Below are positions 24,747 to 45,331 of a DNA stretch of 46,202 nucleotides, in pieces. A program made the position numbers and the translations under genes. The notes beneath the pieces were generated by a model that saw nothing but the letters and a program-made list of their open reading frames with translations, was not told where the DNA came from and did not search any database. The stretch is from a virus. Each line of letters opens with the position of its first letter. The first letter of the stretch is position 1. The stretch is taken from IMG/VR virus record IMGVR_UViG_3300025598_001488, positions 1 to 46,202 of that record. One strand, given 5' to 3'.

Positions 24747-24750
24747 ACCA

Positions 24751-24762: not shown

Positions 24763-25857
24763 ATGTTTGATTTTGAAAATATTTTATGTTATCGTGCGTT
24801 TACGGAATTATATATTGACATAGACAAAAAAAATTATAAACCATGTTGCCATTTTGATCCTAAAAAAAGTATTATATACAATGGGATGGTAGATTTTCAT
24901 GAAACCGTTAGAAATGATAATTTAAAAAATAATTGGTCTTCTGGATGTGAAAATTGTAAATATGCAGAAGAAAATAAAGGTGTAAGTCACAGATTAAATT
25001 GTTTAAATAAACCTGATCATAAATTAATATTTGAAAATAAATTTTTACTTAAACATTTAGAATTGCGATTAGATAACACATGCAATCTTGCCTGTATTAC
25101 ATGCGACAGTGCGTCAAGTAGTAGATGGGCGCAAGAAGATACAAGAATGTATGAAAAAAATTTAAGTAAAAATGCAAAAGTTGATTATGATTGGATTTTT
25201 GATGAAAAACTATGGGAAAATGTAGAGTCACTTGTATTGTATGGTGGAGAACCTTTCTACTCTAAAAAATTAAAAAATATATTATATTGGTTAATAAAAA
25301 ACAAATTTTCTGCAAATATAAAAATATTTTTTTATACAAATGGTACTATTTTTAATGAAGAATTAATAGAATTGTTAAGAAATTTCAAATCTGTCTGCAT
25401 TGGTGTAAGTATTGATGGTGTAGGAGAAAATTTTGAAATAATCAGATGGCCAGCCAAATGGGATGAAGTTTTAAATAATATCAATAAAATAAAAGAAATT
25501 GAAAACAGCGAAATTTACATAACCTATACTGTAAGTGTCCTTAATATTTTTAATCTTAAAAATGATTATTATTTTTTAAAAAATATATCAAATAATATTT
25601 CTTTTAATTTTCTTATAGAACCAAACTATTACAATATTAAAAATTTACCAGAAAAATTTAAAATAAATTTAATAAATGATTTAAAAAAAGATAAAATTTT
25701 TTTGGAAGTAATTAAAAAAATTGTTAAAGATGGCAACAATGAAGTATTAAAAGAGTGTTTTAATAGGTTAAAAATCCTTGATAGGTATAGAAATACCCAT
25801 AGCAATGTACTTTTTCCCACAAATTTTGTAAACTATTTGCTTGACAATACCCTATAA
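24763..25857 (+). CDS. Radical SAM protein, N-terminal twitch/SPASM-like (group 2)
   Basis: 364 residues. Core cysteines C107/C111/C114 (CNLACITC), GGE at 161-163. N-terminal auxiliary-type cysteines C9, C28-C29 and C62/C65. It is a close homologue of the product at 10290-11381. It is extremely AT-rich compared with the AAA and VWA genes on either side, and it lies after a terminator and before a promoter, the layout of a moron. Its last codons contain the TTGACA box of the next promoter. Substrate unknown; no Shine-Dalgarno. Confidence 0.87.
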   Translation: MFDFENILCYRAFTELYIDIDKKNYKPCCHFDPKKSIIYNGMVDFHETVRNDNLKNNWSSGCENCKYAEENKGVSHRLNCLNKPDHKLIFENKFLLKHLELRLDNTCNLACITCDSASSSRWAQEDTRMYEKNLSKNAKVDYDWIFDEKLWENVESLVLYGGEPFYSKKLKNILYWLIKNKFSANIKIFFYTNGTIFNEELIELLRNFKSVCIGVSIDGVGENFEIIRWPAKWDEVLNNINKIKEIENSEIYITYTVSVLNIFNLKNDYYFLKNISNNISFNFLIEPNYYNIKNLPEKFKINLINDLKKDKIFLEVIKKIVKDGNNEVLKECFNRLKILDRYRNTHSNVLFPTNFVNYLLDNTL

Positions 25858-25868
25858 TGTGGTAATAT
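25841..25868 (+). promoter_or_regulatory. Sigma70-type promoter for VWA gene
   Basis: TTGACA 25841-25846, a 16-base spacer, TAATAT 25863-25868, aligned with the other cassettes (ATTATAGACA, then TTGGAGA). A TATAAT at 25853-25858 is too close to the -35 box. Confidence 0.7.
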
Positions 25869-25896
25869 AAATTATAGACATTTGGAGAACACGATT

Positions 25897-29776: not shown

Positions 29777-30652
29777 ATGCATATATTATTTACAGGTGGA
29801 TACGGATTTATTGGGCATCACGTTGTAAAACGTCTTAAAGATAGTGGTCACAGGGTTACTATCATTGATGATTTACGCTTTATCAATACAGAACTATATA
29901 TGGCTCGTGGGCGACATATGGAATTTGCATATGATGATTGGATTAATGCAGATTGTAGTAGCACTATTGTTCAAGATGTAGATGTGATTGTTCATCTTGC
30001 TGGTGAGCCAAACCAAGCAACTTTTTCCAAAGATAATCTTGCTGCTTGGCGCAATACTGTTCAAAGTACAATTCATTTATTAACCACTTATCCTAATGCT
30101 AAGATGGTTTATATTTCAAGCAGCATGGTTTATGGCGATTGGAGTGGAGAAATTGTAGAAGATGCACAATTAAAACCCATTAATGATTATGGTAGGGCTA
30201 AACAACTATGCGAACAATTGGTTAGAATTATCGCCAAACAGTGGGTAATCATTCGTCCAACCGCAGTATATGGCAACCGCGATGATAATAAAAGGGTAAT
30301 TTCAAAATGGGTAAGGGCTGCATTAAATCAAGAAACAATTCATGTTGATGATCCTCATGCAACGCTTGACTTTACATATGTAGAAGATACAGCACAAGCT
30401 ATAGCTAATGCCGCAATGTTTGACACTCACAATTTTATTGCTAATGTAAGTTATGGTCAGGCAAGAACACTGCAAGATGCTATTGAAATTATCAAAGGTT
30501 TGACAAATACTAAAAGCAAAATCCTATATGGTGATGGCATACCATTTGATATGCCCAAGCGTGGTTCTTTAAACATACGCAATGCTGTTCAATATCTTGG
30601 ATATACTCCTAAATTTAGTTTAGAAGATGGCATACAGAAACTTATCAAATGA
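29777..30652 (+). CDS. NAD-dependent sugar-nucleotide epimerase/dehydratase
   Basis: 291 residues, extended SDR. GGYGFIG (7-13) is the dinucleotide-binding loop, VIVHLAGEPN the strand-4 motif, SSSMVYG the catalytic serine region, Y138-x3-K142 (YGRAK) the catalytic pair, and IIRPTAVYG the substrate loop. It acts on NDP-sugars in this family. It starts one base after thyA and overlaps the aminotransferase, so the two probably work in sequence to make an amino or deoxy sugar. Confidence 0.88.
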   Translation: MHILFTGGYGFIGHHVVKRLKDSGHRVTIIDDLRFINTELYMARGRHMEFAYDDWINADCSSTIVQDVDVIVHLAGEPNQATFSKDNLAAWRNTVQSTIHLLTTYPNAKMVYISSSMVYGDWSGEIVEDAQLKPINDYGRAKQLCEQLVRIIAKQWVIIRPTAVYGNRDDNKRVISKWVRAALNQETIHVDDPHATLDFTYVEDTAQAIANAAMFDTHNFIANVSYGQARTLQDAIEIIKGLTNTKSKILYGDGIPFDMPKRGSLNIRNAVQYLGYTPKFSLEDGIQKLIK

Positions 30653-31755
30653 TTTCCTATTATAATCTTAAAGAACAATATGCAGATTGCCAAAGTTTTA
30701 TTCTTGGTGGTATGCAAGCTGTATTTGCAAGCGGTCAATTTTATAGTGGTGAAGCACATGATGCTGTTGCTCGTTATATACGAGTCAAGTATGATGATTC
30801 ACATGTAGAACTTACTAACAGTGGCACAAGTGCTCTTATAGCCTCGCTTATGGCGCTTTATACCAAGCGTGGTTCACGTGTTCTTTTACCAGCAATTACC
30901 TATGCTGCTACTGCACAAGCAGTCATTGCTGCTGGTTGTATACCTACATTTGTTGATATTGATAGCAGTTGGTTGCTTGACGTTGAATTACTAGATGCAT
31001 TGTATGCAAAGTATGGTGATGAGATAAGCACACTTATCACAGTAGATTTATATGGGCAAGGTGTTGAATTAGAACGAGTTCGTAAATGGTGTGATAAGCA
31101 TGACATAAAATGGATTATTGATGCAGCACATAGTTTTGGCATATGTTCAAAAGATTATAATCAAACTGTTGCCGATGCTATTTGTTTAAGTTTTAATCCA
31201 CTTAAAAATCTCGGTGGCAGTGGTGGTGGTGCAGTTGTAAGTAAAACAATTCATCCAACTATTTTAAGTGCCACATGTATGATGGGCAAAACTGAACGTG
31301 GACCACATGGTGCAATTGAATTAACTGGTCTTAACTTTCGTATGTCATCTACGCAAGCAGCCACATTAGTGGCAAAGGCTCCTTACTTTGAAGACCATAT
31401 TATACGCAAGATGAAAATTTGCGAAACCTATTATAATCATTTCAGAAATTATCCAGATAAGATAGACTTACCCATTCGCAAATTATGGGGAACATGGAAT
31501 TATTATTCATTTTCTATTGCGCCAGTAAAACACGAGATTGTCAAAACAGCATTAAAATTAGCTGGTATTGAATGCAGTAGCCACTATGCAAAGCCACTTA
31601 ATCGCGAAGGTTTTGTTAAATCTTATGGGTATCAGTCATGCCCACAAGCTGAATATATTACAAGCAATGAACGAATTATAAGTTTACCAAGTCATTGGCA
31701 TTTATCAAATGAACAGGTTAATACGGTTATCACAACTATACTGGCTGTAATATAA
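30649..31755 (+). CDS. DegT/DnrJ/EryC1-type PLP aminotransferase
   Basis: 368 residues. LTNSGTSALIASLMALYTKR (cofactor phosphate region), IIDAAHSFG (D158) and the PLP lysine K186 in SFNPLKNLGG, as in sugar 3- or 4-aminotransferases, which convert keto-NDP-sugars to amino sugars. It overlaps the epimerase by four bases. Its 3' end overlaps the convergent minus-strand gene by 20 bases, with no terminator in between. Confidence 0.88.
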   Translation: MISYYNLKEQYADCQSFILGGMQAVFASGQFYSGEAHDAVARYIRVKYDDSHVELTNSGTSALIASLMALYTKRGSRVLLPAITYAATAQAVIAAGCIPTFVDIDSSWLLDVELLDALYAKYGDEISTLITVDLYGQGVELERVRKWCDKHDIKWIIDAAHSFGICSKDYNQTVADAICLSFNPLKNLGGSGGGAVVSKTIHPTILSATCMMGKTERGPHGAIELTGLNFRMSSTQAATLVAKAPYFEDHIIRKMKICETYYNHFRNYPDKIDLPIRKLWGTWNYYSFSIAPVKHEIVKTALKLAGIECSSHYAKPLNREGFVKSYGYQSCPQAEYITSNERIISLPSHWHLSNEQVNTVITTILAVI

Positions 31756-34700
31756 GACGAGCATAGTGTTCGCTTAACCAATCCCATTCACTTGTTAGCA
31801 TTAATGCTTCTTCATTTCCACCGCTTGCTGCATAATATTCTTCTGCGTGGGTAACTGCTAACTTTTGAATTTGTGCATTGTTACCATTAGCAACATTACG
31901 CCATGCCCATAGTCTATAATCATTTTCTACACTAGGGCTTTCTCTTCTATAGTGCAATATCTTGATAACTTCACGAAATGCTGTGCGCCAAGTTAACCAA
32001 TCATCACCTTCAAGGTTGGTTTCACTTATAGTAATTGGCACGGTCGTGTGACGTTGAGCAAGAGTCATGTCGAGTCCGCCTCTATTCTCATACATAAGTT
32101 GACAATGATATGCGATGGGTGCCATATGTCCATATTCAAGCCCGTTGTTTAAATTACGGTTATGGAAAATATAATGTTTAGGTTCTTGCCAAAAATCTGG
32201 TTGCCAATTTAATTCTGCAAAATTATCTAAGACATGACACTTGGCAAACACGGCAATGAACCACGGTGTATCGCTTTGGAATGCTGCCGCACGATATGCC
32301 TCTAGTCTACCTTTAATTCCACTGACTAATTTTGCATTTGGATGAACAGTTAATAACCTATTCCAGTTTTCATTTGCACAACTTTCTTTATTATCAATAA
32401 AGATTACATCAATAAGAATATCCGTGCCATATTCTGGATAACGAAGTAAGTATGGATATTCATATATTTCTTTATCAACAATGCAGTCACGAGGAACAAG
32501 ACAGGTGCTATTGCTGCGATTAAGGCTTACTACAGGTCTTTTTTCCCACAAGCAAACATCTGGATAATCTATAAAACTAGTATATGAGTATACTGTATAA
32601 ATTCCACGATTACGAGTTTGGTTATTCAAATCCCATGCTAAGCAATTGTCAGTAACCGATACAACAGGCCAACGTTTACGTTGTAGTGGTTCATGTGCAA
32701 AATTAAATTTTAATTTATCACTATTAAAACTAGGAACATGAACTAGGAATGTATCACCCTTCTCACATGTTCCACTTGGCCAACAATGTATTTGATCGCA
32801 TTGGTCAAGATCAGGCAACCAATTCCAATCAAAATTAGTATAATCACAAACATCACTATATATCCATAACCATTCACGGTTACTTTTGTTAACCGCCGCC
32901 TTAATAGATTCTTCCATTGTCGTAATGAGGCGAACTTGAAAATCTGCAACAAATGGATTATCAAACGTGTTGGTATTTAAAAAACACATATCAGCATATG
33001 TATCATTAAATTTAAGGTGTGATTCATGGTATTTGTAATCTATAAAATTTGCAATAGCATCACGGTGAATGAGAACTGTATAACTTAATTGTTTTTTGCC
33101 AGCCATAGTAAAAGAATGAATGTAGTTAGTGTCCCAACCATCAGGCAACCACTCAAAATCCCATTTACTATAATCAATACGGCGGTCAGCAATCCACGTC
33201 CATTCATTTCCCATAGCTAAATTTTTAATAGTTTCAAGATTAAATGTATTAGTATAATCTTGCCAATAAATGACAGGACGAACTTGTGGCAAAAAACGTA
33301 AATTACTGCGATGATATATTGTTTTTGGATTGGTAATATTTGTGTTTATGAGTTTAGTATACCCAAGATGCTGCGTGCCCGCCATACAAAAAACATGGGT
33401 TTTATCTGCATCCCAAGCATCGGGCAACCAGTCAAAATCAAAATTTGTATAATCAATGCGATCATCTGTCACCCATACCCACTCATCATTTTCAATATCG
33501 CTTTTAAATCGTAATTGTGTTGTATGATATTTTGTTTCAATACTTGCAATTTTAGTGTTGCGCAAAAAAGTATAACATAGCTGCTCAGTACCACGCATTG
33601 CAAAAGCATGTGTTTTGTTAATATCCCATTCGTCTGGTAACCAATTAAAGTCAAAACCAGTATAATCAATACGATCATCTGTTATCCACACCCACTCATC
33701 ATTTGGTTTTTTAAAATCAAATTTTAAGTTAGATTTATGATATTTTGTTGTTGTTGTAGATTTAACTTTAGTATTGGTTAAAAATGTATAGGCTAGCTGT
33801 TTTGTACCTTGCATAGTAAAAGCATGTTTTTTATTAATATCCCACGCATCAGGCAACCAAGTAAAATCAAAGTCATTATAATCTATGCGGTCATCTGTAA
33901 CCCAAACCCATTCGTCATTGGGTTTATTAGGATCAAAAAATAATTTTGCATCATGATACTTTATTTCTTTGCTAGAAATCTTAGTATTGTGCAAAAAGGT
34001 ATAAGCAAGTTGCGTTGTCCCATTCATGGTAAAGGCATGTGTTTTGTTTATGTCCCACGCATCAGGCAACCAATTGAAATTAAAATTGCTATAATCAATA
34101 CGATCATCTGTAACCCAAACCCATTCGTTATCAGTGGGCAATAGCGAATGCACTTTCTCAATTTCTTTAAAGAGCAAATAAGAATTGTGATATACACGCT
34201 CATTAGTGCATCCTTTACGCATTAAACGTGTATACGATAGTTGTTCGGCACCCCACATGCAAAACTCATGAATCTTATCAGCTTCCCATGCATCTGGTAG
34301 CCAGTTAAAATTAAAATCACTATAATCTATACGACTGTCAGCAATCCAATTCCATTCATAAGGAGAGTTATTTAAATCATCCATATCATACCAAATGCCA
34401 ACAGATTTAAATTGCAAATTACTAGTATGATATTTTTTTTCTTCACCAATGCATACACTTGTATAGGATAGTTGTGTAGTTCCTCTCATAGCAAAATGAT
34501 GTTGTTTACCCCAATCCCAAACATCGGGGTACCATTTAAAATTAAATTCATCATAGCATACCTGTTCACTTGTAACCCATTGCGGAAGTTTTATGATGTT
34601 TAATACCTCATCATGGTAACACATTTCGCCATTATTTTCAATTGGTATTAACCAAGTTGTGTAGCACTGTGGATTATCATGACTTGCCCATGCATGTAGC

Positions 34701-34867
34701 ATGTGAGCCTGATGACGATGCGGCATAAAACGTAAATTAAAATTGTTATAATCAACGGCACGATGACACAACCAAATATATTCTGTTTTGCTGCTAGCTA
34801 TTGCTTTAGCAATTAATTTATTAATATCCGTGCAATCTTCATAATCATACCAATAGGTATCAAACAT
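31736..34867 (-). CDS. 1043-residue tandem-repeat protein with GT-like C-terminus
   Basis: Last gene of the minus-strand operon. At least eight divergent repeats start near residues 97, 171, 248, 319, 391, 462, 555 and 665, with a fainter one near 30. The best-conserved unit is W-V-W-V-T-D-D-R-I-D-Y, F-x-F-x-W-L-P-D-A-W-D, H-x-F-x-M-x-G-T-x-Q-L-x-Y-T, then Y-H-x-S-x-L-x-F, about 71-77 residues per period. Residues 815-1043 resemble the product of 45105-44167, a glycosyltransferase-like protein, and the repeats resemble that protein's central DGD...WRAKN...GNGG segment. The C-terminal copy lacks the DGD (reads FIAVFAKCHV), so it may bind rather than catalyse. No signal peptide. Function unknown. 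Confidence 0.85.
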   Translation of the reverse strand: MFDTYWYDYEDCTDINKLIAKAIASSKTEYIWLCHRAVDYNNFNLRFMPHRHQAHMLHAWASHDNPQCYTTWLIPIENNGEMCYHDEVLNIIKLPQWVTSEQVCYDEFNFKWYPDVWDWGKQHHFAMRGTTQLSYTSVCIGEEKKYHTSNLQFKSVGIWYDMDDLNNSPYEWNWIADSRIDYSDFNFNWLPDAWEADKIHEFCMWGAEQLSYTRLMRKGCTNERVYHNSYLLFKEIEKVHSLLPTDNEWVWVTDDRIDYSNFNFNWLPDAWDINKTHAFTMNGTTQLAYTFLHNTKISSKEIKYHDAKLFFDPNKPNDEWVWVTDDRIDYNDFDFTWLPDAWDINKKHAFTMQGTKQLAYTFLTNTKVKSTTTTKYHKSNLKFDFKKPNDEWVWITDDRIDYTGFDFNWLPDEWDINKTHAFAMRGTEQLCYTFLRNTKIASIETKYHTTQLRFKSDIENDEWVWVTDDRIDYTNFDFDWLPDAWDADKTHVFCMAGTQHLGYTKLINTNITNPKTIYHRSNLRFLPQVRPVIYWQDYTNTFNLETIKNLAMGNEWTWIADRRIDYSKWDFEWLPDGWDTNYIHSFTMAGKKQLSYTVLIHRDAIANFIDYKYHESHLKFNDTYADMCFLNTNTFDNPFVADFQVRLITTMEESIKAAVNKSNREWLWIYSDVCDYTNFDWNWLPDLDQCDQIHCWPSGTCEKGDTFLVHVPSFNSDKLKFNFAHEPLQRKRWPVVSVTDNCLAWDLNNQTRNRGIYTVYSYTSFIDYPDVCLWEKRPVVSLNRSNSTCLVPRDCIVDKEIYEYPYLLRYPEYGTDILIDVIFIDNKESCANENWNRLLTVHPNAKLVSGIKGRLEAYRAAAFQSDTPWFIAVFAKCHVLDNFAELNWQPDFWQEPKHYIFHNRNLNNGLEYGHMAPIAYHCQLMYENRGGLDMTLAQRHTTVPITISETNLEGDDWLTWRTAFREVIKILHYRRESPSVENDYRLWAWRNVANGNNAQIQKLAVTHAEEYYAASGGNEEALMLTSEWDWLSEHYARLILQPV
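33008..34579 (-). repeat. Protein-coding repeat array (R1-R7)
   Basis: Seven consecutive repeat units of the 1043-residue protein, the central four (residues 248-525, DNA 34126-33293) being most alike. The DNA is recognisably repeated (for example the CATCxGGxAACCA and CATCTGT segments recur), but codons differ, so these are not recent duplications. Confidence 0.85.
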
Positions 34868-35981
34868 AAGTTTTATAACCTGGCATTAAATAGTTAATTT
34901 GACGCTGTTCATAATCATCATCCGCCCAACTATAATCATAAATTGCTTTGATTCCATCTACTTCAATACTATAAATGTCTAGTTTATCACTCATTATATT
35001 CCAAATTTTATAAGGATCATGAGTTCCAAAGCTACTTTCTAAATCAACATGACCTAATTCAAGATATCCTAAACTTAAATTAACATCGGACGGGTCATAT
35101 CCTTCACGACGTAACCACTCTGTAAACGCATCTTGGGTTTTTTTATGCCAAGCATGTTGGCTATATATTACATCACGTCCCCACTCAACATCAAATTCAC
35201 CACTATAGTACTGTAAATGAGTAATCGCATCGCATGTTGTTTGGTCCAAATGAGGAGCGCCTTCGTCATGAAAAACTTCTATTAAGGTTTTGCCAATCTG
35301 CGTCCAATGCATATAAACATGGGCAAATCTGCGGTCATATCCATTAATTGTAAAACCTGTACGATGTTCATCTTTTAAATATTGTCGTGTTGCATTTAAA
35401 AATGTTGTAATTTGACTTGGACGCACCCAATCAGGTGCATAATATTCTTTTCTAATGCTTAAACAGAGTGTTTCAATTTCATGACAAAGATTATTAATTT
35501 GTCTAATACTATATTTTACTTCTGGTGTTGCAAATTTATAATATAGACTTAAATTTTCAACCGTTCCTTGTAAGCGTTCAAAATAATTATGAACTTCATT
35601 CATTACATCATGATTAGGTCCACCGCCCCGTTTATTTGGTTCATCTATGCCGGTAATCGGTATCATAATATCATTTGCGGTATAATTAGTGCGAATATTA
35701 AATGGTGTTAATCCAATACTTTGCCAAATTCCAGTTTGATTAAAATTCCAAATTCTAGTTGCATGTTTTGTTAATTCGGACGCGAGGTAGTCAAGATTTC
35801 TTTGTGTCTTTGGCCAACCATGCCAGCAATAATTTTTTTCAAGTTCGCTATTCTTTTGTAATTCAAGTTTAAGAGCATCTACCCAATCACGTGCCAATTG
35901 GCTATTATTTGGTTTAATATAATACGTAAGCATATCATTCTTGCTTACTGGATTACGAATTGTTACTGCTATCTTGCTCAT
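34860..35981 (-). CDS. Conserved unknown protein of the radical SAM operon
   Basis: 373 residues from the ATG overlapping the upstream stop (TAATG); the longer form from 35999 lies inside that gene. No cysteine clusters. A distinctive C-terminal segment reads LQYYSGEFDVEWGRDV, then DAFTEWLRREGYDPSD, LSLGYLELGHVDLESSFGTH and KLDIYSIEVDGIKAIYDYSW. I believe similar proteins occur beside radical SAM and glycosyltransferase-like genes in marine phages, but know no function. Overlaps the repeat-protein start by eight bases. Confidence 0.75.
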   Translation of the reverse strand: MSKIAVTIRNPVSKNDMLTYYIKPNNSQLARDWVDALKLELQKNSELEKNYCWHGWPKTQRNLDYLASELTKHATRIWNFNQTGIWQSIGLTPFNIRTNYTANDIMIPITGIDEPNKRGGGPNHDVMNEVHNYFERLQGTVENLSLYYKFATPEVKYSIRQINNLCHEIETLCLSIRKEYYAPDWVRPSQITTFLNATRQYLKDEHRTGFTINGYDRRFAHVYMHWTQIGKTLIEVFHDEGAPHLDQTTCDAITHLQYYSGEFDVEWGRDVIYSQHAWHKKTQDAFTEWLRREGYDPSDVNLSLGYLELGHVDLESSFGTHDPYKIWNIMSDKLDIYSIEVDGIKAIYDYSWADDDYEQRQINYLMPGYKTYV

Positions 35982-37273
35982 TATATATTTTTCCACCAAT
36001 CCAAGACATCACCTGTTAGGATATCTTCCATCTTTATCTTAGCATCTTTTCTCAGTGATTCCAATTTTAAAAGATGTGCTTTACCCTTAATTGCCTCTCG
36101 CTTATAGGTATCAGGAAATTGTTCCGCAAAGGTAGGACGGCTTTTAAGGTGTTCTAACGTGTCCCATAAGCTGCGTGTGCGATGAGTAATTAGTGGTTTA
36201 ATACGTGCCTGTATGCCCTCTAAGAGCGGTTCTAATACCATTCTAGGCAGTGCAAGAGGACTTAATACTATATCAGGAGAAAAGGCAAATACTACCTTAC
36301 TCAGCAGTTCTACATTTAGTTCATCGGATAAATTGATAATATTCTCAAGGTCAAAAAGACCAGGTAAAGTAAGAGTAAAATCAATACGCATTTGTCTAGG
36401 GTTTTTTGAAGATTCAACCCCCCGTCGAAAGCTATTATACCACTCGCTATAATTAAGACCAGTCCTAACATATTCACCAATTGCTCCTGTTCCGTCTAAA
36501 CTTGCGCATATTTCCCAGTGTGGAAAGTTTTGAAGAAGTTCCCATAAAGTTCCCTCTTTGTCTTGGCAATAACTTAAGTTTGTATTATATCTTACACGAA
36601 CTTGATGGGCATAGTCAAGTGCTATTATTCTACGCATAAATGCCCAATGCTCGTCATATAATAGTGGTTCACCACCAACCCAATAGATTTCACGCACACT
36701 TTTATTTTCAATAGCTTCACGAAACTCTGGTATTACTACATCACGAGTAAAGTCACGAATAGCATGACGGTTTTTAGGTTGCATCCAGTGATTTTTTGGG
36801 TTAGACAAATCAACCATATTGTTTTTACGAACTTCAACTTCCCATGCACTACTCAACATATCGCCACACATGCGGCACTTGAAGTTACATACATTGCTAT
36901 AGCGATAGTCCCAAGAGATAGGTTCTAAGGTCGTGTAGCCATTGCTATCTGTAGAAGAAATAATGTCCCCTCGTAAATTCCCAAAGAGGTTCCCAAAATA
37001 ATCACGATATACAGAAGTGTTAAGCAACTTTTTATCACATACTTCGCAAGCAGAAGGAACCACACCAGCCAACCACTGTTTTCTAATTTCTCTAATATGT
37101 TCGCCATTCCACCAATCTTTTAATGTAAGTGGCGTAAACTCACCATCGCCACCAGCAGTATCGATATACTGTTGAAAATTTTGTGCAGGTTCACGAGAAG
37201 CACAGCATAATCGACGTTCTCCTTGTGGAGAAATGTACGTATGCGTAAATGGAGCCAAGCAAAAATCATTCAT
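35981..37273 (-). CDS. Radical SAM protein, N-terminal twitch/SPASM-like (group 3)
   Basis: 430 residues from ATG 37273 (the longer ORF uses TTG). Core cysteines C129/C133/C136 (CNFKCRMC), GGE in WVGGEPLLY. The N-terminal set is C5, C23-C24 (RRLCCAS) and C76/C79 (CEVC), with LAPFTH and W-W-N-G-E-H-I-R-x-I-R between, like the SPASM/twitch pattern but ahead of the core. It overlaps both neighbours by a few bases. Substrate unknown. Confidence 0.88.
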   Translation of the reverse strand: MNDFCLAPFTHTYISPQGERRLCCASREPAQNFQQYIDTAGGDGEFTPLTLKDWWNGEHIREIRKQWLAGVVPSACEVCDKKLLNTSVYRDYFGNLFGNLRGDIISSTDSNGYTTLEPISWDYRYSNVCNFKCRMCGDMLSSAWEVEVRKNNMVDLSNPKNHWMQPKNRHAIRDFTRDVVIPEFREAIENKSVREIYWVGGEPLLYDEHWAFMRRIIALDYAHQVRVRYNTNLSYCQDKEGTLWELLQNFPHWEICASLDGTGAIGEYVRTGLNYSEWYNSFRRGVESSKNPRQMRIDFTLTLPGLFDLENIINLSDELNVELLSKVVFAFSPDIVLSPLALPRMVLEPLLEGIQARIKPLITHRTRSLWDTLEHLKSRPTFAEQFPDTYKREAIKGKAHLLKLESLRKDAKIKMEDILTGDVLDWWKNI

Positions 37274-38429
37274 AACCAATTGCCGCTGCTATCTCTGGAT
37301 GATGATCACTGAACTTTTGATTACGCTGTACATCACTATTCTTTAATGTCTGAACAAGTTTTGAACAATCACTGCCTTCGCCTTGTAACATGAACTGCAA
37401 CAAATTAGCAACTTCATCGCTATATGGTCCGCTATAATTTTGCAGCTTGTTGTAGATTAGTGTCTTTGCACCATCATTTAGACGAGCGATACTAAAATGC
37501 CATGCGTCATGTAACACATTAAAATAAACATAATCAAAACGTTGTTGCGCAATCCATTCACACATTTCATCAATATAATAAAAATTTTGCACATTTGAAG
37601 TCATACATAGTTGTAACTTGATATTGGTATTGGCATCACGCAAATCATAAAAACGTTGTAGATTATCCATAGCTTTATCCCAATTAGCGCCATAACGTTG
37701 GTATTCAAACCGTGAACCAATATCATCTATACTAACCGCTATTTCTACTGTTTTAAAATATGGCCACAATTCTAAACCCCGTTTTGGAAAAGTAGTAACA
37801 TTTGTATTATAATGAATTTCAATATCACTAGCATATCCCATTTTAACAGCAATTTCTAACAATGTAAAGTGTTCATCAATTAAAAAAGGTTCGCCACCAG
37901 TAAATTCAAAATATTTTGTGCGTGATAATAATTGAGTTAAATCTTCCCAAAAATTTTGTGCTTCACGAGGCCAACGACCTAACTCAAGATTTTTACGTGC
38001 AGTAATATTATTTGGATGAATATCTATTTCTTCTTGTGCCCATTTTGAACTACTAAAACTTCCACATATACGACACTTCAAGTTACATATATTACCAAGT
38101 TTTAAATCAAGAAACATTAATTTGCTATCATCTATACTAGTAAAACTCATATCTTTTATAATGTCTTTAAGTCTAGTTAAACTATTCATACGTTTACTAG
38201 TTCTGCCACTATCTTCTTCTGCCCAGCAACGATTGCAATTTGCTGGTTTTTCACCATTTAAAAAACTTTCTCGTAGGTTTTTCATATATGGACTGTTAAA
38301 TGCTTCTGTTAACGTATTTGTTTTTAAATCAATATCTGGTATAGTTTCATGACTTAGACAACATACCTTACATTTACCAATAGAATCAGCCTCAATACTT
38401 ACAAACGGCAATACACAAAAATTATCCAT
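37266..38429 (-). CDS. Radical SAM protein, N-terminal twitch/SPASM-like (group 3)
   Basis: 387 residues, AGGAA before the ATG. N-terminal cysteines C5, C23-C24, C65/C68 (MDNFCVLPFVSIEADSIGKC, KVCCLSHE, CNRCWAEEDSG), core C115/C119/C122 (CNLKCRIC), GGE in FTGGEPFLI, and SIDDIGSRFEYQRYGANW as in other SAM-fold strands. Its order of motifs matches the neighbouring group 3 enzymes, implying paralogous duplication. Overlaps neighbours by eight bases. Confidence 0.88.
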   Translation of the reverse strand: MDNFCVLPFVSIEADSIGKCKVCCLSHETIPDIDLKTNTLTEAFNSPYMKNLRESFLNGEKPANCNRCWAEEDSGRTSKRMNSLTRLKDIIKDMSFTSIDDSKLMFLDLKLGNICNLKCRICGSFSSSKWAQEEIDIHPNNITARKNLELGRWPREAQNFWEDLTQLLSRTKYFEFTGGEPFLIDEHFTLLEIAVKMGYASDIEIHYNTNVTTFPKRGLELWPYFKTVEIAVSIDDIGSRFEYQRYGANWDKAMDNLQRFYDLRDANTNIKLQLCMTSNVQNFYYIDEMCEWIAQQRFDYVYFNVLHDAWHFSIARLNDGAKTLIYNKLQNYSGPYSDEVANLLQFMLQGEGSDCSKLVQTLKNSDVQRNQKFSDHHPEIAAAIGYE

Positions 38430-39726
38430 GTAACATTCCTAATTGAGGAACAACATCAAGCAATTTTTCACCACGAATTGTGTCCATTTTATTTGTGCGA
38501 TCCCAAAACTGTGGTATAAGATGCGACTTATCATCTGCCATCATAAAATTGATAGCACTTTCAAAACCAGTAGTTGCTCTTTTTAACCTATCTAATGGTG
38601 TTAGCCACTTGATATGTTCAAGATACAATTCTTGAATATCTAATTTGTATTGAAATGGTAGAATATCTATTCTAAAAAATGGTGGGTCTTGTAAAATATT
38701 AACGTGCAAATCTTGTGGTTTTAAGAAACCTTTGGCAACCCAATCACGATGAAAACTTGGTAATTGTAGTGCATTCATTACGCTTAGTGTTGGACTAATA
38801 TAAAAATCAACATGCGGACATATGCGCAACATTTCTTCTCGATTGCGTTCGGTTTTTGCCCACACAGTTCCTTTGCGTACTAATTCTGCAAGTGGTCCCA
38901 TCGCATCAAGGCTTGCTCCTACACAAACATCTGTAAACTCATTCCAAAGTTCTAATACATTTTGTTTTCTATAACGTAATTCACTGAAATTAGTATTATA
39001 GGTAAGTCTTACATTATTTTTGCCTTTTTTAAGAAGTGCATCAAGAATACGATAATGTTCTTCCATAATTAACGGCTCTCCGCCCGCAAAGTAAATATGT
39101 TCAACATAATCAAGATGCGGTTCAAGTTGCTCCCATACGTCCAGTTGAGTGCGTCCGGCATATTCGATTCGTGCACTTCTTTTTTTAAATTTTTCAGCAT
39201 TACCACCATTCATTTCAATCAGTTTTAATTGATCATCATACCAATTTGAACTAAAAATATGACCACAACTGCGGCAACGAAAGTTGCAAAGATTTGAAAA
39301 ACGAATATCCCAATAAGACAAAGTAAGTTCTTCAAGATGACCGTTGGATTCGGTATTATCTACACGGCTAATATGATGACCAAATCTTTTATTAAAGCTA
39401 TTGCGCATGCTGAAAAAACCCGCCTCTTCTTGCTCATAACACTTTTTACAAGCACCACATTTTTTTTCTGTTAACATGTTTGTTCTAGTTTGACGCATAG
39501 CATCACTATTCCAAACTTCTTTAATTGTAGATTCTCGCAGATTGCCTATTGAATGATCCATTTCAGCAGCACAGCAAATATATGCTGGACCCGTTGGAAA
39601 TGCATGTAAATGAGTCCAAGGCAGCATGCAAAAAGTTTTGCTTTCCATTAGCAAGAACTTTTGTCGTTCATTAAGTTCTTCTACAGTAATAAATTCAGGT
39701 GTACGTTCGTTGTAATTATAAGTCAT
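38422..39726 (-). CDS. Radical SAM protein, N-terminal twitch/SPASM-like (group 3)
   Basis: 434 residues. N-terminal cysteines C33, C51-C52, then C90/C93/C96 (FCMLPWTHLHAFPTGPAYIC, then KCGACKKC); an extra cysteine pair is present here. Between them lies IGNLRESTIKEVWNSDAMRQ, a pattern typical of SPASM-type domains. Core C147/C151/C154 (CNFRCRSC), GGE in YFAGGEPLIM. Overlaps the upstream gene by 11 bases and the downstream one by eight. Confidence 0.88.
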   Translation of the reverse strand: MTYNYNERTPEFITVEELNERQKFLLMESKTFCMLPWTHLHAFPTGPAYICCAAEMDHSIGNLRESTIKEVWNSDAMRQTRTNMLTEKKCGACKKCYEQEEAGFFSMRNSFNKRFGHHISRVDNTESNGHLEELTLSYWDIRFSNLCNFRCRSCGHIFSSNWYDDQLKLIEMNGGNAEKFKKRSARIEYAGRTQLDVWEQLEPHLDYVEHIYFAGGEPLIMEEHYRILDALLKKGKNNVRLTYNTNFSELRYRKQNVLELWNEFTDVCVGASLDAMGPLAELVRKGTVWAKTERNREEMLRICPHVDFYISPTLSVMNALQLPSFHRDWVAKGFLKPQDLHVNILQDPPFFRIDILPFQYKLDIQELYLEHIKWLTPLDRLKRATTGFESAINFMMADDKSHLIPQFWDRTNKMDTIRGEKLLDVVPQLGMLHG

Positions 39727-41068
39727 TATACCAATCTGCTAATTCAGGAAATGTTTCAATCAAATTTTTGTCACGTCGTTCATCATACTGTTTATAAAAT
39801 GTTTTAAAATCTTTTTCTAATATTTCTAGTGGACTTGCACCAGTATGTGGCAATGTAACAGTATTTAAGTATTCTACAAGACGACGGATATGTTCTATTT
39901 CCATTTGATGTAGATAATATCCATCGCTATACTTTTCTAAAAATACATTGAGTTTATCTACACATTCTTTTTTTATGTAATCAGGCATTACCGTAGGACT
40001 TTGAAAACTAGGAAAACGCAATATATTAAGAGTGACAGTAACAGCATCACGTCCACGACCAACTTTAATATCCATTAAATGGTCTAAAAACTTAGGAAGA
40101 TTGGGTAAACACAGTCCATTAATAGTTGCCATAACATGCATTTTAATGCCAGCAGATTGCAGCGCCAATAGGTTATCTATCCATTGTTTATAATCTAAAC
40201 CATCACGAATATATTCTGCTTGTTGTCCAAAACTTTCGCAACTTGTATAAATTTCAAGATCAGGTATATCCTTAACCTTATCAATAAATTCTTTTAATTT
40301 TTCTTTAATCATGCCAAGATTACTATTGATTGCTAGTTTTGTTTGACTTTTACCCACATTTTCTTTGAACCAATCTAGTAGTTGCCATGTATGTCCACTC
40401 ATGAGTGGTTCACCACCTGTAATACGCAATTCACGCAAGGTTTTATGCAAATCACTTTCCCACCACTTGAAAAATGCTTCTACATAAGGGTTAGTATCTG
40501 TATACCCATAGAGTTGGCTGTTGTCGTGAGCATGTGTAAAATGATTACGCCCATCGCTAACCAACCCGCTATAACCGCCATTCGTCTTAACATCTCGGAC
40601 CCAGGTAGAACTAAATGCAGGATTACAATAAGAGCAGGCAAAATTGCAAGTGCGGTCAAAGGCTATCTCCAATGTTCTAAGATTTACATCACTTTCACTA
40701 GAAAGATTAAATGCATCATTTAATTCTTCTTCACTGTATATCATCGTTTTATATGGTCTGTCACTAATAGCAGTTGCGCTACTATCTTCAATTTTCCAAC
40801 AATATTCACAACCACTTGGTCGCTTGCCATTTTGCATCTGGCGTCTTTGTTCTTTTTTTTCGGGAGTATTATGTAGAGCAGCAGGATTTGCTAATACTTG
40901 TTCAACACTAACTTGATGTGGCAAGGGATGATGACAACTTGTTGTTTGACCACTACCTAACCATATAGTTGCGTTATACCATTTTGCACCACAAAATGAT
41001 ACACTCTTGGTATCTAATACACGCTGTTTATATTCTAGAAAACTTTCGTCTGGTCGCTTACTTCGCAT
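39716..41068 (-). CDS. Radical SAM protein, N-terminal twitch/SPASM-like (group 1)
   Basis: 450 residues. N-terminal C26-x-x-KW, IWLGSGQTTSCHH (C45), NPAALHNTPEKK and C87/C90 (GCEYCWKIE), then a conserved SDRPY. Core C141/C145/C148 (CNFACSYC), GGE in LRITGGEPLM. C-terminus YDERRDKNLIETFPELADWY, shared with the enzyme at 44201-42762 and, more weakly, with 7948-9189. Clearly paralogous to those two. Overlaps SDR by 11 bases. Confidence 0.88.
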   Translation of the reverse strand: MRSKRPDESFLEYKQRVLDTKSVSFCGAKWYNATIWLGSGQTTSCHHPLPHQVSVEQVLANPAALHNTPEKKEQRRQMQNGKRPSGCEYCWKIEDSSATAISDRPYKTMIYSEEELNDAFNLSSESDVNLRTLEIAFDRTCNFACSYCNPAFSSTWVRDVKTNGGYSGLVSDGRNHFTHAHDNSQLYGYTDTNPYVEAFFKWWESDLHKTLRELRITGGEPLMSGHTWQLLDWFKENVGKSQTKLAINSNLGMIKEKLKEFIDKVKDIPDLEIYTSCESFGQQAEYIRDGLDYKQWIDNLLALQSAGIKMHVMATINGLCLPNLPKFLDHLMDIKVGRGRDAVTVTLNILRFPSFQSPTVMPDYIKKECVDKLNVFLEKYSDGYYLHQMEIEHIRRLVEYLNTVTLPHTGASPLEILEKDFKTFYKQYDERRDKNLIETFPELADWYNDL

Positions 41069-41639
41069 TAAAATTCACATAAAAGGTAGTTTCTTCAACA
41101 CATGTATTTTCAGATAGATTAGCAATAAACTTAATATATTCAGCAACATTGCTGCATGATATTCCGTTACCTGTCCAACTTTCTCTGCTACGAGATAGTG
41201 GAGTATCCAATCTATCTAATGTAATTAGAGTTGTTTTAAATAGTACTAAATTATTTTTAAATGCAGCAGTGCATTGTTTGCTAGCAAATTCAAGTGCAGC
41301 TTTTGCTGTGCGATAAGTTTCAAAACTTGGCTCAGGTGCAACAATATATTTACTACCAACACTGCCAATATTAATAATCCACCCACTTTTATTTGCAGAT
41401 TTCCATTTTTCATATACAGCAAGAAGTACATTTACTTGACCAAAGTTAGCCCACTGTTCCTGTGGTGGTCCGTCAAATGCATTATTAATAAATATATCGT
41501 GTTGTAAACTAAGTTCGGCAATTTCGTTTACATTTTTTGTAATGTCGTAGCCAGTTGATCTACTGATGCCGTGACCCCCTAACTGATTACACAATTCTAA
41601 ACCTAGCCCACGATTACCGCCTGTAATTAAATAACTCAT
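41058..41639 (-). CDS. Short-chain dehydrogenase/reductase
   Basis: 193 residues, slightly short for a classical SDR. TGGNRGLG (6-13) binds NAD(P), NNAF lies at 52-55, S93 in INIGSVGS, and the catalytic Y109-x3-K113 (YRTAK) is intact. It overlaps the upstream radical SAM stop (ATGA) and the next gene. A redox step on the operon's product, sugar or modified peptide, is a fair inference. Confidence 0.85.
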   Translation of the reverse strand: MSYLITGGNRGLGLELCNQLGGHGISRSTGYDITKNVNEIAELSLQHDIFINNAFDGPPQEQWANFGQVNVLLAVYEKWKSANKSGWIINIGSVGSKYIVAPEPSFETYRTAKAALEFASKQCTAAFKNNLVLFKTTLITLDRLDTPLSRSRESWTGNGISCSNVAEYIKFIANLSENTCVEETTFYVNFNAK

Positions 41640-42772
41640 CGTTTATTTCCACCTTGATCCCATACTTTTGTCAATTTCTTTCCACAAGTCATTGCACATT
41701 CAAATATTCTACCACTTTTTAAATCTTTTTTCCAACTATTAATTACATAATCCCAAAAAGAATTAGTATATATTTTTTCAATAGAATTATATTTAATGTT
41801 TAGATTATCTTTGCCAAATTGTTCTATGATTTCTCTAATTTGATTTTTTCCGTCTATAAAACTTAAATGGTTACAACTTGGCAAAATTGATGGATCATGA
41901 AACCTAGCATCATAAAGATTATGATTAAAAAAATTGCATGGCAATACCAATCCTTCAGCATTGATTGCTACTTTATTTCCTATTAGAGCATCACATTGAA
42001 TTTCAGTTAAACTAAAATATTCTGAAATATCAGGATATTCTTTTTTAATTGCATCAAGATTCATCATACTATTATTACGATAATCTGAGTTTGCTGGCAC
42101 TTCAAGATCATATAAATGTTCACCAGATTTATCTTTAACTGGCCAACTATTCATTTCTGTAATTGTATCGTGTTTAAAAAATCTTCCTGTTTTTCTTGCA
42201 AGGAATGTTTCAAATCTATATTCTTTGCTAAGTGCACGTGCTGCTTCTACTTGATGTTCATTGTGTTTAAAAATTATAAAGTTCCATTGTGCCTTGCCAC
42301 CAGCATTTATAAAGGCACGAGCATTTGTCATCGAGGTTGAAAAATTTACATTTCGACGATATAAATGATTGGTGTCGGCTAACCCATCAATACCAAAATC
42401 AATTTTACCATATCCATTTATAATTTTGGCAAGTTTTGTCCACCATTCAGGTTTTCTAAATCCAGCATTAGTGTGAATATAAATCCAAACATTTGGGTTT
42501 TTTTTACGAAACATACGGCAAATATCTAAGAAATCTGGATGCATGATTGGATCACCATAGCTTCCACAAAAAAATATTTGTCTTATTCTGTTAACTAATT
42601 CAGTTGGAAATGCACTATCCAATACAGAAAGTGGAAGGTGTTCTAGATACATATGCGGATTAATTCCGCTACCAAAGTTGTTTCTAGGACATTGCGGACA
42701 AGCAGCATTGCAATAACTGGTAACTTCAATTTGGTATTCATCAATTATATTATAATCAAATTTATTTTGCAT
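41636..42772 (-). CDS. Radical SAM/SPASM protein, core-first architecture
   Basis: 378 residues from ATG 42772; the longer ORF from 42808 starts inside the upstream gene. Unlike the other eight, the core comes first: C21/C25/C28 (CNAACPQC) near the N-terminus, then FFCGSYGDP in place of GGE. C-terminal cysteines follow (IQCDALIG, LPCNFF, FECAMTCGKK), consistent with a SPASM domain holding auxiliary clusters. This is the MoaA/peptide-modifying type of arrangement. AT-rich relative to neighbours. Confidence 0.87.
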   Translation of the reverse strand: MQNKFDYNIIDEYQIEVTSYCNAACPQCPRNNFGSGINPHMYLEHLPLSVLDSAFPTELVNRIRQIFFCGSYGDPIMHPDFLDICRMFRKKNPNVWIYIHTNAGFRKPEWWTKLAKIINGYGKIDFGIDGLADTNHLYRRNVNFSTSMTNARAFINAGGKAQWNFIIFKHNEHQVEAARALSKEYRFETFLARKTGRFFKHDTITEMNSWPVKDKSGEHLYDLEVPANSDYRNNSMMNLDAIKKEYPDISEYFSLTEIQCDALIGNKVAINAEGLVLPCNFFNHNLYDARFHDPSILPSCNHLSFIDGKNQIREIIEQFGKDNLNIKYNSIEKIYTNSFWDYVINSWKKDLKSGRIFECAMTCGKKLTKVWDQGGNKR

Positions 42773-44201
42773 TATCTGACCAATACTTACAATTATTATA
42801 CCAATCACTCATCTCTGGGAATGTCTCAAGAAAGTTTGTTTTACGACGAGCATCATGCTCATTAAAAAAACGATAGAAATCTGCCATGGCATTAGTATCT
42901 TCACGGTGATGTTCATACATCCAATCTATTACACGTTGAAGTTTAGCAATTTCATAATCTTTAAATCCATTGAATCGTGTAGCTACTGTTTCTGCCCGTG
43001 GCTGCATCCAACCAACAATATTTTGCAAGAACCAAGCATAACTTTGCGGTAAGATATCAATACACTGCCATGCGGGTTCACGAAGAATTGGAGTATCAAA
43101 CCAAATGCGTTGATAGGTCTTACTATACTTGGCACGAAGTTCAAGAATCCATTCCATTAGTTCTTTGAGACTCGTAATGTTCAACACATTCATTGTAATA
43201 ATAAATGTCACGCTGTTACGACTTGGAACTTCAGTTAAGAACCGTTCTACATTACTCTTCATAAGTTCAAAATCAAGACCATGGCGAGCATATTCAGCAC
43301 GTTCTCCGTATCCATCAATAGAGACGAACTGCATGAAATGCTCTAGCACATGGTTACCACACATGTGTTTAACATAAGTTAAATACTTGTCAAACACATA
43401 TTCATCTTGGCTAAAGTTACTAGTTACATTAAGATGTAAATCTTTCTTAGGATTCTCTAGCACATAATCAAATACACGATAGGTATTGCGGTCCATAAGA
43501 GGTTCACCACCTGTCATTCGAAAATGTTTTAAGTTAGGGTAGAGTTCGGGCCACCATCGCCAGAACGCATCAACATAAGGATTATCTTCCCTATTTGGTA
43601 TAGGTTTACGATCACCCCGAAAATAAGCAGGACTATTATGGCTATTAGAGGTAGGATAAGCACCAAATTCATTGATTTCCTTCATCCAACTAGTGCTGAA
43701 TTGTGGACTACAATATGAACAACTTAAATTACACGCACTGTTAAAATTAACTTCCACATACGCAGGATTCACGTTCCATGTTAAGGGGTCTTGAACCAAA
43801 ATCTCGCTAAACTTCTCAGCAGCCCAAGGTTCCCCCGATCTGTAATGTCGGTCGGATAGGTTTCCCGTGGCTTCAACTCGCCAGCAATATGAACATTCTT
43901 CTGGCTTCTCTCCACCAAGCATTCGTGCTCTCTGGGTTTTTTTATGAGCGGTGTTATGCAGCGCACTGGGGTTATCTTGTAACTCATCGGCATCAATCCT
44001 GTGTAATGGTGGATGATAACAACTATTAGTATGTCCAGTTGTTAGGTGCAAACTTGTCTGCTGCCACTTTGCAAGACAAAGAGCAGTTCCAAGTTTTTGC
44101 TGCATTTTTTCCGCAGCAGACATAAAATCACTGTGAAGGTTACCATCGTTATCGACGACCGCTTTATCACCACTGTTGTTTAGCAGCGTTTCTGATGACA
44201 C
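42762..44201 (-). CDS. Radical SAM protein, N-terminal twitch/SPASM-like (group 1)
   Basis: 479 residues if started at GTG 44201, which has an AAGGGA RBS; the ORF is open to 44273, where it overlaps the upstream gene by 107 bases. Counting from the GTG, core cysteines are C157/C161/C164 (CNLSCSYC), with GGE in FRMTGGEPLM. The N-terminus has C-x-x-KW, TTGHTNSCYHPPLHRI, NPSALHNT and CSYCWRVE, then SDRHY. C-terminus NEHDARRKTNFLETFPEMSD. Close paralogue of 41068-39716. Confidence 0.85.
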   Translation of the reverse strand: MSSETLLNNSGDKAVVDNDGNLHSDFMSAAEKMQQKLGTALCLAKWQQTSLHLTTGHTNSCYHPPLHRIDADELQDNPSALHNTAHKKTQRARMLGGEKPEECSYCWRVEATGNLSDRHYRSGEPWAAEKFSEILVQDPLTWNVNPAYVEVNFNSACNLSCSYCSPQFSTSWMKEINEFGAYPTSNSHNSPAYFRGDRKPIPNREDNPYVDAFWRWWPELYPNLKHFRMTGGEPLMDRNTYRVFDYVLENPKKDLHLNVTSNFSQDEYVFDKYLTYVKHMCGNHVLEHFMQFVSIDGYGERAEYARHGLDFELMKSNVERFLTEVPSRNSVTFIITMNVLNITSLKELMEWILELRAKYSKTYQRIWFDTPILREPAWQCIDILPQSYAWFLQNIVGWMQPRAETVATRFNGFKDYEIAKLQRVIDWMYEHHREDTNAMADFYRFFNEHDARRKTNFLETFPEMSDWYNNCKYWSDNAK

Positions 44202-45105
44202 TATTGTAATCCCTTTCTGGCAACATAATATCAACATTGTGATATTGTCGTTGATTGCGTTTGAACCAAGCACTTTGTTCTGCTTGCATAGTTATTATAT
44301 CAAGATTTAGTCGCTTACGCAATATGTTTGCAAAGTGTTCGCTTTGTTGCAATCCATCTTCCATTGTATATTGCCATAAGGTTTCTAATTTCTTGAAATC
44401 ACGAACTTCACGATAATCCCAAGTATCTTCAAACATTGTCAAATAGGCACCTTGTCTGGCACCCATTATTGCCCACTTGCCAAACTCTACATCAGCACCC
44501 ACCGAACACCATATGACAAGATTTAGACGATTGCCAATCCATGTTGCGGTTTCAAATTCTTCGGGCGTAGGGCGACGACCACGATCAAGACATAGTTTTA
44601 CGCCTTCACGAAATCCTGCTTGCCATGCTTGTTGCGGCGAAGAGTTAGGATACGTAGTGCTCCATACATCATGCATTGCCCAATAACGGTTATCAAAACA
44701 AAACTCAACTGCAGTATCATCGCCGCCATCGGTTGCTTCATGTGTTCGCATATTATTAACAAAATCTTTAGTCCAACTTGAAATGCCGCCATTGCCATAA
44801 CATAAGCCATTGATGGCGTTTTTTGCTCGCCAACGAAATACACAATCGGCATTGCGTTCATCAAGACGTAGTTGCTGATTAAAGAACTCTGGATTAGGTT
44901 GATTGTCGCCATCTATTAGAATGAATCGCTCTGTTTCACTGGCAGCAGCGGCTGCTTTGTGTGCAGCATCCGAACCTTCTATACCATCAACACGCTTTGC
45001 CCATGGTGCAAATGAACGCAAGTATGCAAAGTTAGCATCTGCATTTGGTTCTTTGTAACTTAAAAAGATGCAATCTAATTCACTAATATCAATTAACTCA
45101 GGCAT
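44167..45105 (-). CDS. Glycosyltransferase-like protein (GT-A type)
   Basis: 312 residues from ATG 45105, which has AAGGA upstream; the ORF is open to 45123. An N-terminal strand and loop (DCIFLSYKEPNADANFAYL), then KRVDGIEGSDAAHKAAAAAS, and FILIDGDNQP with a DxD-like DGD are the pattern of a phage glycosyltransferase-like family. A later segment WRAKNAINGLCYGNGGISSW is shared with the repeat protein. Likely transfers a sugar, but family function is not established. It overlaps the 77-residue gene by eight bases. Confidence 0.7.
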   Translation of the reverse strand: MPELIDISELDCIFLSYKEPNADANFAYLRSFAPWAKRVDGIEGSDAAHKAAAAASETERFILIDGDNQPNPEFFNQQLRLDERNADCVFRWRAKNAINGLCYGNGGISSWTKDFVNNMRTHEATDGGDDTAVEFCFDNRYWAMHDVWSTTYPNSSPQQAWQAGFREGVKLCLDRGRRPTPEEFETATWIGNRLNLVIWCSVGADVEFGKWAIMGARQGAYLTMFEDTWDYREVRDFKKLETLWQYTMEDGLQQSEHFANILRKRLNLDIITMQAEQSAWFKRNQRQYHNVDIMLPERDYNSVIRNAAKQQW

Positions 45106-45331
45106 ATTTCCATCCTTGCACATTTGGATAACCAGTATTCACGGGAAACTGATAATCATCATGCAGCGTATAATAATTTGTGCCGCCTTTTACCAATATA
45201 TTTTGTGTTGGTATTTTAGGTTGTGGCATCATTGGTGGAGTTGGTGGGTTAGGATCGTTTGGTTTAACTTGTTTGGCAAGTTCTCGTTCAAACTCAGCCC
45301 ACCATTCAGCGATTTCTTCTTCCGTATTCAT
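45098..45331 (-). CDS. 77-residue leading peptide of the operon
   Basis: First gene of the operon. It has an acidic amphipathic N-terminal helix (MNTEEEIAEWWAEFERELAK), a Pro-rich linker (NDPNPPTPPMMPQPK), then a C-terminal part rich in Tyr, Asn, Trp and Gly (LVKGGTNYYTLHDDYQFPVN, then TGYPNVQGWKYA). Its leader-plus-aromatic-core layout fits a substrate for the radical SAM enzymes behind it, but this is inference. A simple virion protein is the main alternative. Possible TATAAT box at 45344-45339. Confidence 0.6.
   Translation of the reverse strand: MNTEEEIAEWWAEFERELAKQVKPNDPNPPTPPMMPQPKIPTQNILVKGGTNYYTLHDDYQFPVNTGYPNVQGWKYA

Follow-up and report, generated by a model that had tools for sequence, protein, structure and literature searches.

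A conserved radical SAM-rich gene cassette of uncultivated jumbo phages that may build and edit a sugar-based decoration

What might a virus make with six radical S-adenosylmethionine (SAM) enzymes encoded in one operon? The question is raised by the IMG/VR virus record IMGVR_UViG_3300025598_001488, the whole of which, 46,202 bases, forms the stretch analyzed here (the window). Eleven minus-strand open reading frames (ORFs) run from position 31736 to position 45331, each at the place and in the order given by the original prediction, which had been made from the letters alone, and overlapping end to start. That prediction also saw in them a multistep modification pathway; this is supported by the conserved linkage reported below, and the product, which had been left open, now leans toward a sugar-based one. 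We put it at about an even chance that the operon is a conserved jumbo-phage biosynthetic cassette for making a sugar-based decoration and editing it afterward. In order of transcription, its genes are the following.

45098..45331, minus strand: PEP77, a shortened 77-amino-acid member of a small-protein family (alignment to full-length forms via relatives L002 and L016)
44167..45123, minus strand: GT318, predicted GT-A-type glycosyltransferase at the cassette head (homology to the REP C terminus; DxDN motif, IDGDN)
42762..44273, minus strand: RS5, twitch radical SAM protein (NF033640, 340.7 bits; true start probably downstream of 44273)
41636..42808, minus strand: RSx, radical SAM protein of another subfamily (NF033640, 21.5 bits, below the cut-off), in the variable slot between RS5 and RS4
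41058..41639, minus strand: SDR, short-chain dehydrogenase/reductase (Pfam PF00106, E = 4e-8; YRTAK and GxxxGxG motifs)
39716..41068, minus strand: RS4, twitch radical SAM protein (NF033640, 315.9 bits; own tree clade)
38422..39726, minus strand: RS3, twitch/SPASM radical SAM protein (NF033640, 388.7 bits; SPASM, E = 2.9e-12)
37266..38429, minus strand: RS2, twitch radical SAM protein (NF033640, 340.4 bits; own tree clade)
35981..37279, minus strand: RS1, twitch radical SAM protein (NF033640, 270.3 bits; own tree clade)
34860..35999, minus strand: YSG, a function-unassigned 379-residue protein of LQYYSGEFD type, adjoining RS1 (structure model)
31736..34867, minus strand: REP, 1043 residues, tandem repeats of ~71 residues and a C-terminal domain modeled as GT-A (hhalign; structure model)

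Conservation of the cassette

Overlaps between neighboring ORFs of the operon range from 4 to 107 bases. The longest two, 107 bases for GT318/RS5 and 47 bases for RS5/RSx, both hinge on reading each gene from its earliest start codon; since the RS5 twitch domain does not begin until residue 64, this gene probably starts further in. All six radical SAM genes originally counted in the operon have intact CxxxCxxC motifs, and the Pfam Radical_SAM domain was found in 6 of 6 (E values from 1.4e-9 to 7.7e-5, two matches being below the curated cut-off).

Scans of IMG/VR gave 26 loci for YSG, 22 loci for RS3, and 574 relatives for a GT318 profile, 80 of which were retrieved. The resulting 109 GT318 loci fall into 91 groups at 95% identity, 69 of them with at least 9.5 kb downstream. 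A core order recurs in these contigs: small protein, GT318, RS5, RS4, RS3, RS2, RS1, YSG, variable genes, and REP. RS5 is present in 65 of the 69 nonredundant loci, RS4 in 62, RS3 in 65, RS2 in 59, RS1 in 51, and YSG in 42, many of the absences being cut-offs at the 10-kb flank. All five radical SAM genes, from RS5 down to RS1, stand in that order in 46 of the 69, and among loci with at least four members, 56 of 60 keep the order and 4 break it. YSG directly follows RS1 in 26/26 loci found through YSG. Chance is no explanation for an orthologue order that recurs in dozens of independent contigs, and the linkage that the original prediction had proposed to look for in other phage genomes holds strongly. 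The cassette-bearing relatives include contigs of 320 to 354 kb. A tblastn search of 50,697 isolate phage genomes with GT318, YSG, and REP returned no match, and neither did a tblastn search of phage isolates with the small protein.

The surroundings of this core change from phage to phage. Between RS5 and RS4, different radical SAM genes or none at all are encoded, and the 16 nearest loci contain no close counterpart of the window's RSx or SDR. When 132 accessory proteins were assigned to Pfam families, radical SAM proteins (18) and carbamoyltransferases (15) led the count, which includes DUF6071, B12-binding, GDSL, AMP-binding, DegT, and Stf0 sulfotransferase families; Asp/Arg hydroxylase, hexapeptide transferase, and others are also found. 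Two sugar-nucleotide genes converge on the operon of the window.

29777..30652, plus strand: NAD-dependent sugar epimerase/dehydratase (Pfam PF01370, E = 2.6e-35)
30649..31755, plus strand: DegT-family sugar aminotransferase (Pfam PF01041, E = 4.4e-55), its 3' end overlapping that of REP by 20 bases (31736-31755)

The DegT protein is 29% identical in relative L001, where most core proteins are 84 to 94% identical (RS4, 77%). In L002, with a core slightly less similar than that of L001, the DegT figure is 72%. The sugar-nucleotide genes beside the cassette are swapped between relatives while the core is kept.

Genes for thymidylate synthase and dihydrofolate reductase precede this convergent pair, and phages are known to glycosylate DNA, which brings modification of the phage's own DNA bases into consideration. 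We consider it highly improbable: both genes are commonplace in phages, the cassette contains no recognized base hydroxylase or kinase, and the related bacterial clusters described below partly adjoin family 2 glycosyltransferase (GT2) genes.

Radical SAM enzymes, glycosyltransferase-derived proteins, and the small protein

While six is the right count for the operon, a search of the entire window brings the total to nine radical SAM genes, all intact and without stops. The other three lie outside the operon on the plus strand.

7948..9189, plus strand: RS6, twitch radical SAM protein (NF033640, 195 bits)
10290..11381, plus strand: RS7, twitch radical SAM protein, 36% identical to RS8 (NF033640, 192.3 bits)
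24763..25857, plus strand: RS8, twitch radical SAM protein (NF033640, 224.5 bits), between MoxR and VWA genes

The two genes on either side of RS8 (window positions 23545-27159) encode a MoxR AAA ATPase and a VWA/metallopeptidase protein (DUF2201), and this MoxR-VWA pair is kept in relatives and in phage Phosso.

RS1 to RS5 (270 to 389 bits) and RS6 to RS8 (192 to 225 bits) are all members of NCBIfam NF033640, the N-terminal twitch radical SAM family, whose curated cut-off is 170 bits and whose model names no reaction. RSx, with the motif CNAACPQC, fails membership; it is 37% identical to a Bacteriovoracaceae chromosomal protein, and a PDB sequence search with it returned nothing significant. 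A radical SAM profile matched only generic relatives in the PDB (e.g., SkfB, viperin, BlsE, and MoaA). CxxxCxxC and four extra cysteines (C33, C52, C93, and C96 of RS3) are invariant in 8/8 twitch proteins, and cysteines of a second iron-sulfur (twitch/SPASM auxiliary) cluster are present in RS1 to RS8. CxxxCxxC is likewise intact in 429 of 429 radical SAM orthologues (not deduplicated), and 102 of 102 RS5 orthologues have both CxxxCxxC and GGE. In a tree of 138 radical SAM proteins, built by a quick method and with several long branches flagged, a well-supported branch separates each of RS1, RS2, and RS4 from all the rest; a single change likewise suffices for RS3, with low support, and a distant contig raises the number to two for RS5. 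Given these separate old clades and the motif retained in all orthologues, RS1 to RS5 are probably five distinct, active enzymes, as judged from sequence. Here, five separate clades of NF033640 proteins are held together in a fixed order. A side observation concerns RS3 and RS2 (37266-39726), whose identities to relatives fall into a high group (~80 to 94%) and a low group (~55 to 63%); the other core genes do not mirror this, which suggests allele exchange.

Many cofactors are made by radical SAM enzymes, and small-molecule or cofactor biosynthesis aiding the infected cell is one role that such a cluster could have; a metabolic-fitness reading of this kind was offered for the radical SAM genes of Campylobacter phage CP220 (PMC2853527). 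This auxiliary metabolism seems improbable here. The NCBIfam assignments of the operon radical SAM proteins include no known cofactor family, and the swapped neighbors and the copy number of the repeats in REP, to which we now turn, are unlike a fixed metabolic pathway.

GT318 and the C terminus of REP are homologous (BLAST E = 1.3e-8; hhalign 99.6%, E = 5.6e-24). The REP model has a mean pLDDT of 84.2 and a pTM of 0.49, which leaves the domain arrangement uncertain; residues ~815 to 1040 model as a GT-A fold, with Foldseek probabilities up to 1.00 to many GT-A enzymes. Fold-match Z scores for this domain are moderate, at 7 to 9 (maximum, 9.0), and the list of matches is almost wholly of GT-A type. 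Since GT318 is homologous to a domain that models as GT-A, it is predicted to be a GT-A-type glycosyltransferase, which makes the original description of a glycosyltransferase-like protein more specific. DxDN is invariant in GT318 (109/109 homologues), and the REP C-terminal domain lacks DxD, reading FAKCHV at that place. The ~71-residue repeats of REP match part of its own C-terminal domain (hhalign 96.4%, E = 1.2e-9) and do not match the GT318 profile directly (0.6%), the link running only through the C-terminal domain. Their number varies among relatives from about 2 to 12 by motif count. REP appears to have arisen by multiplication of a glycosyltransferase piece and not to be a catalyst itself; it is probably a noncatalytic scaffold or a binder of the acceptor or glycan. 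In 7 of 10 large records, GT318 is followed downstream on its own strand by a second GT-A match, which is REP-like.

The model of YSG (pLDDT 88.5) predicts a cyclophilin-like barrel with a helical insert. A Foldseek search returned no match at E 0.001 and a PDB sequence search nothing significant; cyclophilin and KslB rows with borderline Z scores of 6 to 8 (best, 8.1) were set aside as functional evidence. Six residues of the insert (N134, H137, E141, H173, E174, and E176) are invariant and might form a metal site.

PEP77, originally listed as a 77-residue peptide, is no orphan but a shortened member of a conserved family. In 89 of 109 loci, the gene immediately upstream of GT318 encodes a small protein of ~95 to 130 residues, whose consensus comprises MTEEEFW in its N-terminal segment, a middle domain (YRLYYDxxG...YSMEDLPGxYIxVD...VxDGKL), and a tail. 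The family HMM does not hit PEP77 itself, which aligns to full-length members through L002 and L016 and retains only the first and last parts, the middle domain having been lost throughout the window's clade. The small protein is possibly an acceptor, a carrier, or an adaptor.

It is because of this protein that a peptide-centered reading remains, in which residues of the small protein or of a virion protein would be cross-linked, epimerized, or changed in other ways by the twitch/SPASM radical SAM enzymes in the manner of a ribosomally synthesized and posttranslationally modified peptide (RiPP), with GT318 adding one sugar, as in glycocins. Radical SAM/SPASM-twitch enzymes are best known as modifiers of peptides and proteins, their SPASM/twitch domains mostly from peptide maturases, and the fold search with the REP C terminus also matched the S-glycosyltransferases SunS and ThuS. 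We nevertheless regard the RiPP-like reading as unlikely: the middle domain of the small protein is conserved but wholly absent from the window's clade, the protein's tail has no common core motif, no protease or transporter was recognized in the window operon, and the accessory genes are mostly of sugar or small-molecule type.

Genomic site and related clusters

The B-family DNA polymerase of the window is closest to those of the Rak2-like jumbo phages Phosso, Atu_ph07, and the 121Q group (44 to 48% identity). Upstream of the small protein lie genes U3, U2, and U1, and beyond them U4, U5, and a large gene for a virion structural protein; the window retains only the apparent end of U1, and terminase and capsid genes lie outside it. 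U5 and U4 are shared among relatives, and tail-fiber PHROGs match the protein encoded in the place of U4 in L061. Terminase lies at least tens of kilobases from GT318 in the five large relatives where it was found, and a search of ten large relatives for a tail sheath (PF04984) found none. The genes upstream of GT318 were also considered as T4 neck proteins gp13 to gp15, an assignment rejected for want of PHROG support, U1 matching a protein from a cluster of glycosyltransferase and GDP-mannose genes in cyanophage ACG-2014f. Probable homing endonucleases are encoded at 45370-45921 and 2598-3194 (NUMOD3; PHROG 314); the first sits between the apparent U1 end and PEP77, a place where similarly long ORFs occur in L005 and L011. 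Scans for sigma-70 promoters and terminators stayed at chance level, and the T4-type late promoter TATAAATA matched once in the window against 7.1 matches expected, with none at the operon. Its rarity, below chance, may mean avoidance outside real promoters.

Agrobacterium phage Atu_ph07 and Sinorhizobium phage Phosso, the closest isolates by DNA polymerase, carry a radical SAM cluster at the same site, downstream of U5 and U4 homologues and a virion structural gene. Their cluster differs in having three radical SAM genes and, by tblastn and HMM comparison, no genes homologous to GT318, YSG, or REP. The adhesin-adjoining site therefore holds radical SAM clusters of more than one make. No membrane segment was found in the operon or convergent proteins (highest 19-residue hydropathy, 1.55), so the operon encodes no flippase, polymerase, or lipid-linked transferase. 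Since the cassette follows virion structural and tail-fiber-like genes and comes without membrane proteins, a virion protein made simultaneously is the most likely acceptor, with the host surface as second choice.

Bacterial relatives of the cassette genes bear on that second choice. GT318 homologues (33% identity) occur in 18 of 291 Bdellovibrionota genomes, a label that rests on one titled metagenome-assembled genome (MAG), and lie near NF033640 twitch radical SAM genes in 11 of 12 genomes checked. These clusters share GT318, REP-like proteins with a single GT-A domain, RSx (37% identity), and twitch radical SAM genes with the phage cassette; they differ in that the RS4-RS3-RS2-RS1 set was not seen and in that GT2 genes are in part present. 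GT2 genes (PF00535) number 12 within 15 kb of the best GT318 match, where 1.3 would be expected; they come from four of ten genomes, and the enrichment is a rough figure because the genes cluster. Matches to YSG came from two genome contigs; in a Bacteriovoracaceae MAG, its gene directly follows one resembling RS5, with ordinary chromosomal genes around the pair (L058 8493-10909) and GT318 not adjoining. Three twitch radical SAM genes beside GDSL-like and membrane-anchored proteins were observed in the same bacterial genome (L145 8265-16245). On a contig of a MAG titled Rickettsiales (C6; L147 and L148), GT318 occurs together with a UDP-sugar dehydrogenase gene and more than 10 radical SAM genes; this contig may be a misbinned phage.

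That Bdellovibrionota chromosomes encode relatives of GT318, RSx, RS5, and YSG, some of them near GT2 genes, would fit a cassette that remodels a host surface polysaccharide, for example to block superinfection, instead of decorating the virion, and such a role has been proposed for pelagimyophage glycosyltransferases (PMC7029224). The absence of membrane segments from the operon proteins and the tail-fiber and structural genes that adjoin the cassette speak against this, and we think it distinctly unlikely.

The original prediction knew of no described phage pathway with this composition. This calls for a qualification. A search of open-license papers found no account of this gene set and no proven function for any such phage radical SAM cluster, but phages with many radical SAM genes had already been reported. 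CP220 and CPt10 encode 11 and 12 radical SAM proteins, and phages with 8 to 12 have been called "highly unusual" (PMC2853527; PMC12390700). Like the window, CP220 and CPt10 each carry many radical SAM genes, in their case together with nucleotide-diphospho-sugar transferase-like and amidinotransferase genes (PMC2853527), but only RSx is weakly similar to their proteins (25.6%), and GT318, YSG, and REP have no match there. Aeromonas phage 332-Vera (Chimallinviridae) has eight radical SAM genes in a structural gene cluster (PMC12390700), among tail and structural genes, a likeness drawn from its published description. The host-recognition region of pelagimyophages contains radical SAM cassettes (PMC7029224); there and in Pelagibacter phage Mosig, radical SAM-type (MoaA-like), carbamoyltransferase, DegT, and epimerase genes stand beside tail-fiber genes, but the radical SAM subfamilies are other ones and the conserved five-gene order was not seen. 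Mosig EXVC030M is a cultured phage with a comparable gene mixture beside its tail-fiber genes. In Vibrio phages K566 and K567, twitch radical SAM genes are interleaved with GT8 genes, and K566 also has a weakly GT4-like gene.

A proposed pathway and what it would mean

A sugar-based product is favored by the GT-A head of the cassette, the swapped sugar-nucleotide genes, the sugar-tailoring accessories, and the bacterial relatives that partly adjoin GT2 genes. The UDP-sugar dehydrogenase in a related cluster, the GT8 genes of K566, and the cyanophage homologue of U1 lend further support. In the pathway we propose, the epimerase and the DegT aminotransferase (with SDR in the window) would supply an activated sugar, which GT318, as a soluble GT-A enzyme, would move onto an acceptor, while REP, with its GT-A-derived repeats and a terminal GT-A domain devoid of DxD, would hold the acceptor or the growing product. 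The five twitch radical SAM enzymes would each make one radical change on the sugar or the glycosylated residue, candidates being dehydrogenation, epimerization, deoxygenation, and C-C or C-S bond formation. YSG may assist these steps, and accessory enzymes in other phages could add carbamoyl, sulfate, acyl, or hydroxyl groups. A more specific version, a viral assembly line in which the glycosyltransferase primes a virion protein or the small protein, the protein of GT-A fragments holds this acceptor, and the five twitch enzymes, one after another, carve a radical-edited glycan or glycopeptide of a kind not known elsewhere on the virion, is a tentative and rather doubtful extension.

Several points weigh against the sugar-based decoration. 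The DegT, epimerase, and SDR genes fall outside the strictly conserved core, and GT2 neighbors were found in only 4 of the 10 bacterial genomes checked. A PDB sequence search with GT318 returned nothing significant, leaving it without a solved relative by sequence. The better-known peptide and protein chemistry of radical SAM/SPASM-twitch enzymes and the conserved small protein at the cassette head would also fit peptide modification. Coexpression with virion genes is deduced from adjacency and strand only, and the proposal leads from observed gene families, motifs, order, conservation, and genomic setting, and a modeled REP C-terminal fold, to substrates, reactions, a sequence of steps, and an acceptor that we infer.

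Five distinct radical SAM enzymes kept in one order across many uncultivated giant phages point to a common, uncharacterized virus chemistry. The NF033640 family gains a context in which its members may serve sugar-based modification, and REP adds the description of a tandem repeat protein apparently derived from glycosyltransferase fragments. Because Atu_ph07 and Phosso carry radical SAM clusters at the same site, these isolates offer a test bed for the NF033640 family.

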